Source: Candidatus Fermentibacterota bacterium (GTDB taxonomy: Bacteria > Fermentibacterota > Fermentibacteria > Fermentibacterales > JCC-6). From it: DNA of 44,713 nucleotides. The translations under genes were made by a program, and so were the position numbers. The stretch spans positions 1 through 44,713 of the forward strand of contig WJMA01000031.1 of the NCBI GenBank assembly GCA_014728175.1. The letters are read 5' to 3'. Below, piece by piece: positions 8,390 through 15,165 of this stretch; position 1 is the stretch's first letter, and each line of letters opens with the position of its first letter. Below the pieces are notes generated by a model, which saw nothing but the letters and a program-made list of their open reading frames with translations, searched no databases and was not told where the DNA came from.

Positions 8390-9484
8390 CTGGAAGCGTT
8401 GCTGGAAGGCCTGGGGCTGGGCCTGGCCACCGGAACTGCGTGCCTGGCCAGCTGCGGCCCCATCTACGTCACCTACCTCCTGGGAGAGCAGCGGCGGGGA
8501 TCGGAGTCTCTACGGGTAATACTCCTGCTCAATGCGGGGAGGTTCGTAGCCTACGCGGCCTTCGGGGCGGTGATAGGGGCTCTGGGGGGATTCGTTCCCC
8601 GGTCGGTCCGGGCCCCGGTGGCGTACTCGGGCTACATCCTCTTCTCTATATACATGGTCCTTTCCGTGATACGCGCTCACAAGGCATGCACCGGATGCGA
8701 CATTCCCGGGTTGATGAAGATTACGCGCAGCCCCATGCTTCTGGGAATCCTTACCGGATTCTCCATCTGTCCGGCCTTTCTAATCGCGATCACCGGCGCC
8801 TTCCATTCCAGCGGTGCGGTTAGTGGCATTCTTCTCTTCCTGGGCTTCTTCGCCGGCACCACGGTATACATGCTGCCGTTCTCGATACTGGGGCTTCTTA
8901 CCAAGAAGGAATGGCTCACCAAGGTAGCCAGGATCGCGGGAGTGTTGGTTGCGGTCTACTTCGCGGCCATTGGAATCCGGGGCATCGCCACGCAAGTAGC
9001 CGTGGGTGGTGGCGATCAGATCGTTCAGGGCGAGGGGGAGGCCATCTTCTCGGTGATGGACGCCGATACCATATACGTTCTGAGCTTCCAGGACGATTCG
9101 ACCGACTACGGAGTGGAGTTCTCCAAAGATCTGGACGGGGCCGGTCTGCCCCCTTTGCTTCCCCTGAGCACGGACAGCACGCATTGGCGGGCGGCGGTCG
9201 ACCGCATACCCAAGCTCTCGGCGGTGATCGTCCCCCGATGGGTGGACGAGCGGTCCGGCGTGCCCATCCAACCATGGCAGGACAGCGTGGCCCTCGCGCT
9301 TCGAGACAGGCGCCTGAGGATCTTCGCTCTCGAGTACGAGCCCTACTGCTCCGAGACGCCCCGGATTATCATGTCTTTCCTGGAACGGTACAGCTTCAAG
9401 TGCGATCCGGACTCCGGATTCGTCTTCTACATGGCTAACCCGGAGGATCCCTCGGACTGCGCCACCTGCCCTTTTGTCCAGTAA
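8390..9484 (+). CDS. DsbD/TauE-like membrane protein with periplasmic C-terminal CxxC domain
   Basis: A 364-residue protein. The first about 210 residues hold six or so membrane helices of the DsbD_2/sulfite-exporter type: LGLGLATGTACLASCGPIY, then NAGRFVAYAAFGAVIGALGG, the loop KACTGC, and GFSICPAFLIAI, which carry the paired cysteines that relatives use to move reducing equivalents or metal/sulfur species across the membrane. The last 150 residues are soluble, contain four more cysteines (YCSE, FKCD, CATCP) and end CATCPFVQ. The likely start is a CTG at 8390, in frame and 7 bases after GGAGG (8378-8382); the next start, TTG 8399, is too far from that site. It follows the ferredoxin/barrel genes by 90 bases and probably supplies electrons or cluster precursors to the exported ferredoxins. 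This is inference. Confidence 0.75.
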   Translation: MEALLEGLGLGLATGTACLASCGPIYVTYLLGEQRRGSESLRVILLLNAGRFVAYAAFGAVIGALGGFVPRSVRAPVAYSGYILFSIYMVLSVIRAHKACTGCDIPGLMKITRSPMLLGILTGFSICPAFLIAITGAFHSSGAVSGILLFLGFFAGTTVYMLPFSILGLLTKKEWLTKVARIAGVLVAVYFAAIGIRGIATQVAVGGGDQIVQGEGEAIFSVMDADTIYVLSFQDDSTDYGVEFSKDLDGAGLPPLLPLSTDSTHWRAAVDRIPKLSAVIVPRWVDERSGVPIQPWQDSVALALRDRRLRIFALEYEPYCSETPRIIMSFLERYSFKCDPDSGFVFYMANPEDPSDCATCPFVQ

Positions 9485-10783: not shown

Positions 10784-12700
10784 TTAAAGCTCGGCCAGCC
10801 TCTTCCTTTCCTTGGAGCTGGCCAGTATGTCGCCCACAATGGGCAGAAGAATTATCAGAAGCCATCCAAAGACGAACTCCATGCTGCGCAACCCGAAGCT
10901 GCCGTAGGGAACCGCTCTGGCCCTTATCTCGCTGTACAGCATCCACAGGATTCCCATGGGGACGATCCATCTTATGCAGATCTCCCACCACAGCCCCACG
11001 TGGATCGAGGAGTTCTTGTTTATGTACTCCCTCTGCTTGTCGGCACCGATTCCCCATCCCAGGAAGATGGTCTCACCCAGCACCACCAGAGTCAGCCCGA
11101 AGCTGTTCATGAAGTGGTCGGCTATGTCCAGGATGTGCAACCCTGCTCCGGTCAGCATGGGCACCCCCAGCAGGAAGGCCAGGGTTCCCACCGTCAGGTT
11201 GGCACGTTTATGGGACGTCAGCCACTTGTCCTTCACCGAGGCCGTAGCAGCTTCCAGTAGGCTGAACGCCGAGTCGACGGCCAGGGTTAGCAGCATCAGG
11301 AAGAACAGGATCCCGAAAACCCTGGCCCCGGGAAGACCGCTAATTATGTGAGGGTAAGCCACGAAGGCCAGCCCGGGCCCGGACTGAACCACCTCGGACA
11401 CCGGGACCCCCATCCTGCTCGCCTGGTAGCCCAGGGCGCTGAACACCGCCAACCCGCCCAGGAAAGCGGTCATGGCGTCGGCTATTCCTATGATGAAGGC
11501 GTTACCGGCTATATCGGTCTTCTTGGGCAGGAAGCTTCCGTAGGCGATCATGATGGCGAAGCCCACGCTGAGGCTGAAGAACACCTGCGATATGGCCGCC
11601 AGCCAAATCCTGGCATCCATCAGCTTGCTCCAGACCGGGGTCAGGTAGAAGCTGAGGCCGGCCCCCGAGCCGGAAAGAGTCAATCCTCTCACTATGAAGA
11701 CGATAAGCAGAGCCCACGGAATGAGCACGGTGAAGTAAACCACTTTGCCCACGGTCTTTGTGCCATGCCATACGGAGGCCACGATCCATACCCAGGCTAT
11801 CACGAACCCTATGAAGAGGTACCAGTGGAAATCCCCGAGCTTCCACGGCTGGCTGGTAAGGCCCAGGAAGTCGTTGTAGAAGAAGTCGCCGGGGGAACCC
11901 ATGAACGTGCTGGCCTCGTTGACGTTGTTAAAGCCATATAAGTAGCCGTCGTAGGCTACCAGTATGGTGGAGACTTTACGCACGAAGTCACCCTGGCCGG
12001 AGATCGGCGAAACATACTCCTGTCCCACCAGATCGTCGGGTATCCGGTCCAGAATTCTAGGGCCGGCATCACCGATAGGCTTCAGCGCACAGGCACCGTC
12101 TATGCAGGGGGTCCTGAGGAACTCCTCCGCCTCCGTGCGGGTGGGAAAGGCGTAGATATCCCTATGATATCCCACCAAGGAGGTCGCTTCCGGCACCACT
12201 TCGTCTGTGATGCTGTCCACCGGGGAGGTGTAGGTCATGCCTATCAGCTCGTCGGGAACGTCCTTGAGTACCTCCAGGTCCCCCAGCTGGGTCTCGGCGA
12301 TCGCCAATTGGGAGTTGGCGAACTTGCCCGGCTCCTGCTCCCATCCCAGGGTAACCGCCTCGTACGTGTAGTTGACGCACCAGGACATTATTATAGCATA
12401 GTAGCATACAATAATAAAGCCTACGCCTACGGCGAACCATCCGAACCACTCCAGCTTCCTGTTGGTCTTGGCGAAGGCTCCGGGCGCAGCCTGCCTCGTG
12501 CTGTGCCCCAGTTTGAATTCCAGTATTAGTAAGGGTATACCGGCCAGGAAAAGACATGCGAAGTAGGCGACCAGGAACGCTCCTCCCCCGTTGGCGTAGG
12601 TAACGTAGGGAAAGCGCCAGATGTTGCCCAGCCCGATTGCCGACCCGATGGCAGCTAGAATGAACGCGGTCTTGCTGTTCCAGGTTTCTCGCGCAGCCAA
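10784..12700 (-). CDS. Sodium:neurotransmitter-type symporter (SNF/NSS family)
   Basis: A 638-residue membrane transporter that would use the sodium gradient to import an amino acid or amine. The first helix has the family signature SAIGLGNIWRFPYVTYANGGG, which holds the sodium and substrate sites. Helix 3 is VGVGFIIVCYYAIIMSWC. Other helices follow (FFSLSVGFAIMIAYGSFLP around helices 6-7, and AVDSAFSLLEAATA). Between helices 3 and 4 there is an unusually long external loop of about 140 residues. It contains two similar halves (VPDELIGMTYTSPVDSI and IPDDLVGQEYVSPISGQ), so it arose by duplication; most bacterial members lack it. The start is TTG 12700 with AGGAGGGG just upstream; a further upstream in-frame ATG at 12742 gives an unlikely 14-residue extension. 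It ends at the shared hairpin. Confidence 0.85.
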   Translation of the reverse strand: MAARETWNSKTAFILAAIGSAIGLGNIWRFPYVTYANGGGAFLVAYFACLFLAGIPLLILEFKLGHSTRQAAPGAFAKTNRKLEWFGWFAVGVGFIIVCYYAIIMSWCVNYTYEAVTLGWEQEPGKFANSQLAIAETQLGDLEVLKDVPDELIGMTYTSPVDSITDEVVPEATSLVGYHRDIYAFPTRTEAEEFLRTPCIDGACALKPIGDAGPRILDRIPDDLVGQEYVSPISGQGDFVRKVSTILVAYDGYLYGFNNVNEASTFMGSPGDFFYNDFLGLTSQPWKLGDFHWYLFIGFVIAWVWIVASVWHGTKTVGKVVYFTVLIPWALLIVFIVRGLTLSGSGAGLSFYLTPVWSKLMDARIWLAAISQVFFSLSVGFAIMIAYGSFLPKKTDIAGNAFIIGIADAMTAFLGGLAVFSALGYQASRMGVPVSEVVQSGPGLAFVAYPHIISGLPGARVFGILFFLMLLTLAVDSAFSLLEAATASVKDKWLTSHKRANLTVGTLAFLLGVPMLTGAGLHILDIADHFMNSFGLTLVVLGETIFLGWGIGADKQREYINKNSSIHVGLWWEICIRWIVPMGILWMLYSEIRARAVPYGSFGLRSMEFVFGWLLIILLPIVGDILASSKERKRLAEL

Positions 12701-12789
12701 CCGACCCCTCCTACAGCTATGGGTTTCCCAGGATTGTTTCACCGCACATTGTCACCGGGCTTACGATACCGTCAAGCCCGGCTTACTCC

Positions 12790-14454
12790 CTAGCTTTCTT
12801 CCTCCACCTCCTTCTCCTCGATCTCCACCTCTTCCTGCAGCTGGCGGTAGACCCGTCTGGTGGTGATTCTTCTCCATATCCTGGTCCTGGCGAACAGGGA
12901 CAGCAGGGCGCCGTAGAAGCAGAGGTACTTGCAGAAGAACCTTCCCAGATAGATGGAGAGGATTATGGTGATCACCGCTACTATAGTGCTGCCCACCAGG
13001 AAGAAGCTGAAGATGGTATGGAACGGGTCCCAGTTGCAGAACAGGGCCGGCCATTCCATGGTGATCGCCCCGAATCTGGTAAGCAGCAGAACGGTGACCA
13101 GGGCGACGAGTATCACGTACTTCAGGTAGTGCAGGCGTTTCTCTACCGCGGAGGGTATCTTGATCTTCCCCGGAAGACCTATGTAGTGAAGCATGTGCTG
13201 CAGCGCCCCCATTGGGCATACCCAGCTGCAGAAAACCCTTCCGATAAGGGCGCTGCTCACTATGGGCAGGAGGAGGATGGCCACCCCTATCCAGCCCAGG
13301 AAGGCCAATCCCCCGGCGATGAACAGGTACTGGAATGCTCCCAGGGGACAGTAGCACCCCTGAACACCGAAGCCCAGCACCATCAGAGATATCAGATAGA
13401 TGACGAAGTGGGCGTTTCTCCGCTGCTCCATCACCTGCCTGGTGCGACTCTTACGGGCCCGGGCGTCGGCCATCGAGTCCGGCAGCAAGGCCTCCTTCCT
13501 GGATACCGTTCTCCCGGTAAGCCGGTCCCAGACCGTCTGCTCCTCGAAGGCCTTCTTGGTTCGCCTCCTCAGAGTACGGGACACGGCGACCGATACCGGA
13601 AGCAACACGGCCAGCCCTATCAGAACCAACAGTATCCTCCGCTTGCCGCCCGAGGGATTGGCGCAGGTCACCCCAGGACCGGCTCCGTACCAGTGTGGAC
13701 ACAGGGCCAGGGAGTCGGGGCAGGCGGACTGGGGGTCGAGGTATCGGGGGCAGGTGTTGCCGGACTCTACAACGTAGGGGCAGGGCTCAATCGGCACGGA
13801 GTCGGCGGCCACCACGGTTCCCAGAGTATCCGACGTGGGACCGGGATTGTTGCAGTAGCCGTCCTGGTCGGTATCGTCGAAAAGGGCGCAATCGGGGTCA
13901 TCTGCATGGCAGGCTTCGCTGGGGGTGTACCCCAGAGGGCAACAGCCGGCCGGACCGGGACCGCGGCCCTCACGGCGGGGGCTCTCATGGGTAGGGCCGG
14001 TCCGTTGCGGCGGCACCGTCTCGGCCGAATCCGTCCGGGTGCTTTCGGTCGACTTAGTGTCCGACGCCGGCGTAACCACCGGATCTGCGTCGGTTGACTC
14101 GACTGGGGAAGGCTCGTGCTCCTCCGGGACCTCGGGCGGTTCTTCCGGAATAAGCTCTTCCTCCGAAGCAAGGGAAGGGTTGGAAGCCGTTTCCTCGGGT
14201 ACCGGCAACGAATCGACAACCTCGGTTGACGAGGTGTCCGGGGGGAGGCTACTTGCCGATGAGGTATCCGCCTCGGCCGGCGGCTCCGGCTCGACGGACG
14301 GATTGTCGCAAAGCTCGTCGCCGTCCTGGTCGGCGAATAGGGCGCAGGTCGGATTCTCGGCCGTGCAGGCGCTCTCGGGAGGGTAATCCAGAGGGCAACT
14401 CGCCAGGCACAACCCGACGTGTGCTATAAGCAGCAGTACGATAGACCTACGCAT
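12790..14454 (-). CDS. NapH-like membrane iron-sulfur protein with N-terminal Cys-rich repeats
   Basis: A 554-residue protein. It starts with a signal/lipobox (LLLIAHVGLCLASC, Cys20). Cys-rich units follow, CPLDYPPESACTAE...CALF-DQDGDELCDNP and CPLGYTPSEACHAD...CALF-DTDQDGYCNNPG, with D-x-D-x-D-G-type metal-loop residues, separated by a long acidic Ser/Thr/Pro/Glu linker. A third shorter unit is CPRYLDPQSACPDSLALC. After one membrane helix (ILLVLIGLAVLLPVSVAVS) comes a NapH/CcoG-like segment: GCYCPLGAFQYL, the helix-flanking VFCSWVCPMGALQHML and FCKYLCFYGALLSL, each a C-x3-C(P)-type iron-sulfur loop, and several helices. It is likely a quinol-linked electron-transfer membrane protein. Its partner ferredoxin is not fused, and the exported ferredoxins at 5.2-7.1 kb are obvious candidates. 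The tail is acidic (EEVEIEEKEVEEES). Start ATG 14454 lacks a strong ribosome site. Confidence 0.8.
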   Translation of the reverse strand: MRRSIVLLLIAHVGLCLASCPLDYPPESACTAENPTCALFADQDGDELCDNPSVEPEPPAEADTSSASSLPPDTSSTEVVDSLPVPEETASNPSLASEEELIPEEPPEVPEEHEPSPVESTDADPVVTPASDTKSTESTRTDSAETVPPQRTGPTHESPRREGRGPGPAGCCPLGYTPSEACHADDPDCALFDDTDQDGYCNNPGPTSDTLGTVVAADSVPIEPCPYVVESGNTCPRYLDPQSACPDSLALCPHWYGAGPGVTCANPSGGKRRILLVLIGLAVLLPVSVAVSRTLRRRTKKAFEEQTVWDRLTGRTVSRKEALLPDSMADARARKSRTRQVMEQRRNAHFVIYLISLMVLGFGVQGCYCPLGAFQYLFIAGGLAFLGWIGVAILLLPIVSSALIGRVFCSWVCPMGALQHMLHYIGLPGKIKIPSAVEKRLHYLKYVILVALVTVLLLTRFGAITMEWPALFCNWDPFHTIFSFFLVGSTIVAVITIILSIYLGRFFCKYLCFYGALLSLFARTRIWRRITTRRVYRQLQEEVEIEEKEVEEES

Positions 14455-14553: not shown

Positions 14554-15165
14554 CTAGAACTGGGCCTTTATCGAACCGAAGGTGCTTTGGTCCAGCGAGA
14601 GCTCGCCCTCCAGTATCAGATGGGGCACATCCTCGAGAGGTTCGTTCGCCGTACCGGCGCCGTAATCGCCTCTCAGCGCCCTTGTTCCCTCGCCTTTCCA
14701 CTGCCAAGTGTAGAGAGAATACTCACCCGAGGACCACTCGAACTCGAGGAGGAGGTTGTCGGTGTAGTCGTAGTAGTAGGGGGTATCCAGAACTATCTCG
14801 AACCACTCGTCGACACCCACGTTGACCGTAAAGGGATTGGCGCTGTAGACCAACGTCTTGGTGCCGCTTACGAAGTTGTCGTCGAAGTTCATTCCCAACG
14901 AGTCCACGGCGCACAGGCCCATGTATATCTTGAAGTCGTTCAGCAGAGTGTTCGGCTCCCCGGCCGGCCCTCTCTTGAAATGGATCTTGCTTATCGATAT
15001 CGCGTCGTTGATCTCATCGTCTAGCATTACCACCTGGTAGCGCAGTGAGAGGTATCAACCGCCGCAGAATGGATCGCTGGAGATGGTCTGGTCGGAGCCT
15101 ATCTCTATCGTCGCCGACAGCCCCAGGGCCGTGACTACTACGAGGGCGATCATGCCTGTTCTCAT
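14554..15165 (-). CDS. Secreted protein with in-frame TGA (candidate selenoprotein, CxxU)
   Basis: Read from ATG 15165 (GGGAGGAGG upstream) the frame gives a signal peptide (MRTGMIALVVVTALGLSA), then TIEIGSDQTISSDPFCGG, a TGA at 15055-15057, and continues without break for 166 more codons to a normal TAG and a terminator. If TGA is selenocysteine the product is 203 residues with C34-G-G-U37, a CxxU redox motif. The second half (EINDAISISKIHFKRG, FDDNFVSGTKTLVYS, VDEWFEIVLDTPYYYDYTDN, LLLEFEWSSG) is a single beta-sandwich-like domain, and the first half supplies its leading strand, so both parts belong together. Downstream of the TGA, at 19 nt, is AGGT in a hairpin loop, as in bacterial SECIS elements. 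A pseudogene or a sequencing change from TGG is the alternative. Confidence 0.7.
15024..15041 (-). promoter_or_regulatory. SECIS-like hairpin after TGA in 14554 gene
   Basis: On the minus strand the bases after the TGA form GC-TACC-AGGT-GGTA-AT-GC: a 4-bp TACC/GGTA stem with AGGT loop, plus an outer GC/GC pair after a two-base bulge. The AGGT begins exactly 20 nt after the TGA. This is close to the E. coli fdhF SECIS, which also has AGGU in the loop at a similar distance. It lies inside the coding region, encoding Tyr-Gln-Val-Val. Confidence 0.6.

Follow-up and report, generated by a model that had tools for sequence, protein, structure and literature searches.

Among the selenoproteins characterised so far, thioredoxin-like folds prevail (PMC13188914). 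Those that come closest to the protein described here, the SelW-like, AhpD-like and thioredoxin-like selenoproteins with a Cys-x-x-Sec motif (CxxU), show exchange of Sec for Cys and carry the SECIS element directly after the UGA (PMC13188914), as does the family of this locus; the catalogued CxxU thiol oxidoreductases, however, mostly have thioredoxin-like or other known folds with Pfam or NCBIfam models, whereas the present family is a secreted β-sandwich for which there is no model. A CxxU selenoprotein listed at the cell envelope, the TonB-dependent receptor of the FCYXU motif type (NF049945), shares an FCxxU-like motif with the protein of the window (the whole stretch of 44,713 nucleotides analysed here); as far as its catalogue entry tells, though, NF049945 is a receptor family, and the window protein has no NCBIfam match. 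Searches of Pfam and NCBIfam (June 2026) return nothing for this protein up to E 10, and no such family is contained in the 2026 catalogue of 119 prokaryotic selenoprotein families (PMC13188914). The CxxU proteins are an undescribed family of secreted, non-thioredoxin selenoproteins, occurring in the uncultured phylum Fermentibacteria and one other lineage, and add a secreted all-β family to the mostly thioredoxin-like known set. The initial annotation had supposed that a redox-active surface of this type was undescribed, the redox activity itself being inferred; no literature linking Fermentibacteria with selenoproteins was found, subscription papers and preprints being thinly covered, and an earlier description is not fully excluded.

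The gene and its landmarks are the following:

14554..15165, minus strand: coding sequence of the secreted CxxU selenoprotein (203 residues with TGA read as Sec); full-length homologues across the order
15112..15165, minus strand: signal peptide, residues 1-18 (MRTGMIALVVVTALGLSA), without lipobox Cys; from the sequence and a low-confidence, unstructured segment of the model
15064..15066, minus strand: TGC codon of Cys34, the resolving-Cys position of CxxU; at least 90% conserved (alignment A1)
15055..15057, minus strand: UGA codon for Sec, residue 37; of 136 distinct sequences, family or related, 95 have TGA aligned here and 7 have Cys

Translated on the minus strand from 15165 to 14554, the gene reads MRTGMIALVVVTALGLSATIEIGSDQTISSDPFCGG(stop)YLSLRYQ...IKAQF(stop), with the TGA of codon 37 as its sole in-frame stop and TAG as its terminator; a good ribosome-binding site lies within gggaggaggtaga, upstream of the ATG. 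With TGA37 as Sec, the motif becomes Cys34-Gly-Gly-Sec37. The N-terminus is a hydrophobic export signal, with PFCGG-U shortly after it, and the N-termini of the family are secretory, without a lipobox; secretion of the protein is inferred. Six surrounding ORFs of the window terminate in TGA and the gene itself encodes Trp by TGG at four codons; TGA is thus a normal stop here. Downstream of the TGA, nearly all close pairs of homologues show purifying selection, with dN/dS of about 0.1-0.3 (0.4 in one near-identical pair); as the TGA column is moreover kept in homologues phylum-wide, the in-frame TGA is not a product of chance. Recoding of TGA as Trp or Gly is ruled out by the nearby TGA stops, the single TGA per gene, and the Cys substitutes. 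We predict with near certainty that residue 37 is selenocysteine, in the absence of an experiment showing Sec insertion. Since the UGA lies near the N-terminus, automatic annotation likely cuts or truncates such genes, and the secreted selenoproteomes of uncultured phyla may consequently be missing from databases.

The family is present in 40 of the 42 genomes of the window's order (its own genome counted), in up to nine copies each, which mostly have exactly one internal TGA; this aligns as a single column (CGSU, CGTU, CASU, CGGU, CADU, CGDU and others). Where Fermentibacteria members are complete at the site, the column holds Sec in 52, Cys in 7, Trp in none, and any other residue in none. 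The forms without TGA read CGDC, CASC and CADC, the CxxC that had been anticipated for them, and Trp does not occur at the TGA position in any homologue of the family. The Sec sequences (85 in all) comprise 64 with CxxU, 16 with CU, in which Cys directly precedes Sec, and 5 with neither (GIGU, SSDU, LSGU); a selenenylsulfide with the Cys of CxxU or CU is thus not universal. The GIGU members (L087, L089, L090) carry a Cys seven positions upstream of Sec (GCAPIGIGU), which may serve as a substitute partner. Near the Sec, only Pro32, Arg42, and Gln44 are conserved.

Behind the UGA of the window gene lies the following element:

15012..15050, minus strand: bacterial hairpin of SECIS type, with the core UACC-AGGU-GGUA spanning 15039-15028 and the loop 19 nt downstream of the UGA

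It meets the bSECIS constraints of PMC13188914 and has a minimum free energy of about -11 kcal/mol (-11.2 to -11.5; -7.1 in a stricter sub-window), but taken alone it is unexceptional (z -0.94) and contains one C.A mismatch. The folding values for L012, L021, L026 and L125, whose input sequences begin elsewhere than at the UGA, are left out of account. Support for a SECIS comes, as far as sequence comparison can provide it, from the family and not from the window element alone. The family hairpin has the form GCGCUACC-AGGU-GGUAGUGC or a variant of it, with the loop 19-22 nt after the UGA; in Fermentibacteria, all 50 of 50 elements have the loop AG(G/U)N and form pairs 1-6, the C.A of the window being the sole exception in 300 cells. 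Over 40 distinct rows, all but one of the 240 stem cells (239) are paired, compared with a mean of 228 and a maximum of 233 in shuffles, none of which (0 of 500) scores as high; compensatory changes are seen in 7 rows at pair 2 (C-G to U-A) and in 3 rows at pair 4 (U-A to C-G). When the stem is displaced, pairing falls to 20-61%, except at a shift of -3, where the repeated GGU keeps it at 92%. Of the 85 Sec members, 82% form a stem of at least 6 perfect base pairs; among the 29 non-Sec relatives the share is 7%, and among codon shuffles 12%. The bSECIS constraints are passed by 80/85 Sec members and 7/29 non-Sec relatives; in the Cys homologues, the hairpin is lost.

The window's genome encodes a tRNA-Sec (74 bits, anticodon UCA), SelB, SelA adjoining SelB, and SelD, whose gene (G000:C60:19920-20840, L122) lies near that of tRNA-Sec on the same contig and has itself one in-frame TGA, making SelD an independent second selenoprotein of this genome. 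More broadly, of the 33 good-quality genomes tested, 32 have selA, and the exception (G394) also lacks the family. Linkage to selA, suspected in one genome (G004), is interrupted by an ORF lying in between on the opposite strand. The complete set of Sec genes and the conserved hairpin give the predicted Sec decoding independent support, and together with the aligned TGA/Cys column they uphold the initial annotation in its reading of TGA 15055-15057 as Sec within Cys34-Gly-Gly-Sec37.

AlphaFold2, run with 34 family sequences and with Sec modelled as Cys, predicts a nearly all-β protein (pLDDT 91, pTM 0.84). The junction is modelled with high confidence (pLDDT ~96 for the block of residues 31-40), and the fused sequence packs as a single β-sandwich, as the initial annotation had asked of it; its further proposal, that DPFCGG and YLSLRYQ join into one strand, fails, for Cys34 and Sec37 sit in the loop between strands 27-29 and 41-47 of the model. 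Foldseek searches of the PDB return distant jelly rolls, namely PHR domains and the carbohydrate-binding modules (CBMs) of carbohydrate esterases (3no8, 3gbw, 7tok), which share the jelly-roll β-sandwich at a probability of ~1, but with TM-scores of only about 0.4-0.5 (query-normalised, 0.36-0.45) and 10-12% identity. No thioredoxin fold is among the Foldseek matches listed, and the all-β model does not meet the criterion for one, in agreement with the early view of a small secreted domain outside that fold. We know of no redox motif in PHR or esterase CBM domains.

The family extends beyond the window's order. A pattern scan of an 84,980-species collection, made with alignment A3 as A2 is too diverse, gave confirmed matches only in Candidatus Fermentibacteria, Aegiribacteria, Sabulitectum, and Hyd24-12; that the family is confined to one phylum is nevertheless ruled out by HMM search, which matches a second lineage that the A3 patterns do not recover. 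In ~340 genomes outside the order, the profile search found one further Sec member, in genome G161, whose phylum-level lineage has the family in 11 of 14 genomes, in as many as 28 copies each. This lineage contains 43 distinct Sec members, besides about 10 paralogues lacking both Cys and Sec, and possibly has one of the larger prokaryotic selenoproteomes. Its tandem arrays (L175, L178, L183, and others) mix CxxU and CU (RGCU, YGCU) paralogues with others that lack the site (PWRGMG, YYGGGG). Other phyla have remoter relatives (L126-L154), non-Sec β-sandwich surface domains ('IGTGT..YP..YYNYS.SQxIYLxSEIG') that are homologous to the CxxU family along most of their length (best E 2.4e-19); unlike the small CxxU protein, they are parts of large surface proteins of up to several thousand residues, and have aromatic residues in place of CxxU (PLDRYYNYS..Q), with no Cys or Sec. 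The initial annotation would have taken homologues with another residue at the TGA position and no Cys34 as refutation; such sequences are absent within Fermentibacteria, but do occur among these distant relatives and in a few second-lineage paralogues, where they mark gain or loss of the motif. Masking the motif before tree building places the two Sec groups side by side and the Cys forms inside Sec clades (about 3 changes); in the second lineage, the site has disappeared about twice. From this topology, Sec was probably gained a single time inside the β-sandwich family, with replacement by Cys and loss following later. A single domain family would thus show Sec gained, multiplied, exchanged, and lost.

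In the window, the CxxU gene heads a cluster with two further genes:

12790..14454, minus strand: partner gene, with a signal peptide, three extracytoplasmic CPLGxxPxxAC-x6-C-x11-C repeats, and a NosR/NapH-like polyferredoxin membrane domain (Fer4_5)
10784..12742, minus strand: third cluster gene, an SNF-family Na+-coupled (amino acid-type) symporter (PF00209, E 1e-122)

The partner follows the CxxU gene directly on the same strand, and the CxxU orthologue heads the pair. Its Fer4_5 match is above the Pfam cut-off, and it has in common with the NosR/NapH/MauN polyferredoxins a membrane domain with CxxxCP-type cysteines; it differs from them in its three N-terminal extracytoplasmic four-Cys repeats and in scores that are far under the NCBIfam cut-offs (NapH, 32.5 bits vs 213; NosR, 50 vs 1000). 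A PDB sequence search with the partner gave no match. The repeats, with the consensus CPLGxxPxxACx6CALFxDxDGDxxCDNPG occurring three times, could bind [4Fe-4S] clusters or Ca2+, or form disulfides; of the 19 core cysteines, 17 are invariant in 13 homologues, and each of the 12 repeat and 7 membrane-domain cysteines is kept in at least 11 of the 13. A CxxU gene adjoins the polyferredoxin in 32 of the 38 order genomes that have one, or in 32 of 34, spread over three families, when four cut by contig ends are left out as uninformative; the two informative exceptions (G001:C26 about 126 kb and G009:C182; L216, L218) have no CxxU gene beside the polyferredoxin. The window's gene order, CxxU-polyferredoxin-SNF symporter, recurs in seven further genomes from the same family. 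Most CxxU paralogues do not lie beside a polyferredoxin, but are solitary or in tandem.

We consider that the locus as a whole is best explained by a secreted Sec redox protein fed via the polyferredoxin, and regard this as rather probable, with neither the redox chemistry nor Sec insertion supported by experiment. UGA37 would be decoded by the cell's own SelA, SelB, SelD, and tRNA-Sec with the help of the downstream hairpin, a step for which the sequence support is strong; the exported β-sandwich would then, according to the model, present Cys34-x-x-Sec37 on an inter-strand loop. That the domain is redox-active is inferred from the conservation of CxxU/CxxC and the exchange of Sec for Cys: the pair most likely alternates between a selenenylsulfide and the thiol/selenolate state, which would make the protein an extracytoplasmic thiol-disulfide oxidoreductase or an electron carrier. 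In the window's clade, electrons would probably pass from a cytoplasmic ferredoxin to the polyferredoxin, over its 12 extracytoplasmic cysteines, and on to the CxxU pair, a route inferred from gene linkage that we give about an even chance; the final acceptor is speculative, polysulfide, cystine or another extracellular disulfide or sulfur compound being conceivable, and the neighbouring Na+ symporter might import a product. The wider proposition, that a surface β-sandwich became a selenium-dependent redox module and multiplied into an extracellular selenol electron-transfer system, charged by polyferredoxin in the window's clade and there reducing extracellular sulfur compounds, remains tentative, and we would sooner doubt than assert it.

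Several other readings accept a real secreted selenoprotein. The CxxU or CU site might serve to sequester or detoxify soft metals or metalloids (Hg, Cu, As, Se species) by binding them, without electron cycling, as some known CU/CxxU selenoproteins indeed bind metals (MbdU, mercuric transport proteins; PMC13188914) and the vicinal variants RGCU and YGCU would suit them; but the replacement by CxxC and the polyferredoxin linkage point to electron transfer, and no metal-resistance genes are found among the recurrent neighbours, so that we think this unlikely. Somewhat less likely still is a peroxidase-like or disulfide-repair site that shields the cell surface from oxidants; Sec resists over-oxidation and the exposed copies are many, but no peroxidase-type active-site residues are evident beside the Sec, where conservation is limited to the three residues given above, and antioxidant genes are likewise missing from the recurrent neighbours. 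Fermentibacteria, described as strictly anaerobic fermenters (PMC5763382), would fit such a shield.

The Foldseek neighbours, the occurrence of the other-phyla relatives as repeats within large surface proteins, and the degradation of cellulose by Fermentibacteria (PMC10116835) would also be compatible with a CBM- or PHR-like jelly roll in a structural or binding role, in which a Cys-Sec selenenylsulfide stabilises or cross-links without catalysis; we hold this to be improbable, as Sec, costly and seldom retained for a structural role, is present in ~95 distinct members, and as the polyferredoxin linkage also speaks against it. Finally, a lone in-frame stop in one assembly would look just the same in a pseudogene, after a sequencing error, or with TGA recoded for another amino acid. 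That homologues from dozens of independent assemblies have this TGA at the aligned position refutes a pseudogene or error, and selection persists after it, while neighbouring genes stop at TGA and Cys is the sole substitute in the phylum; this explanation can for practical purposes be dismissed.

For the favoured secreted Sec redox protein, electron supply by the polyferredoxin can hold for one clade at most, since most paralogues are unlinked to it; in that clade, the linked polyferredoxin makes the export of electrons to surface selenols by fermentative anaerobes a testable proposition. A DsbD_2/CcdA-type membrane protein, encoded 5 kb away in the window (8399-9484, plus strand), is another possible route for transmembrane reducing power.
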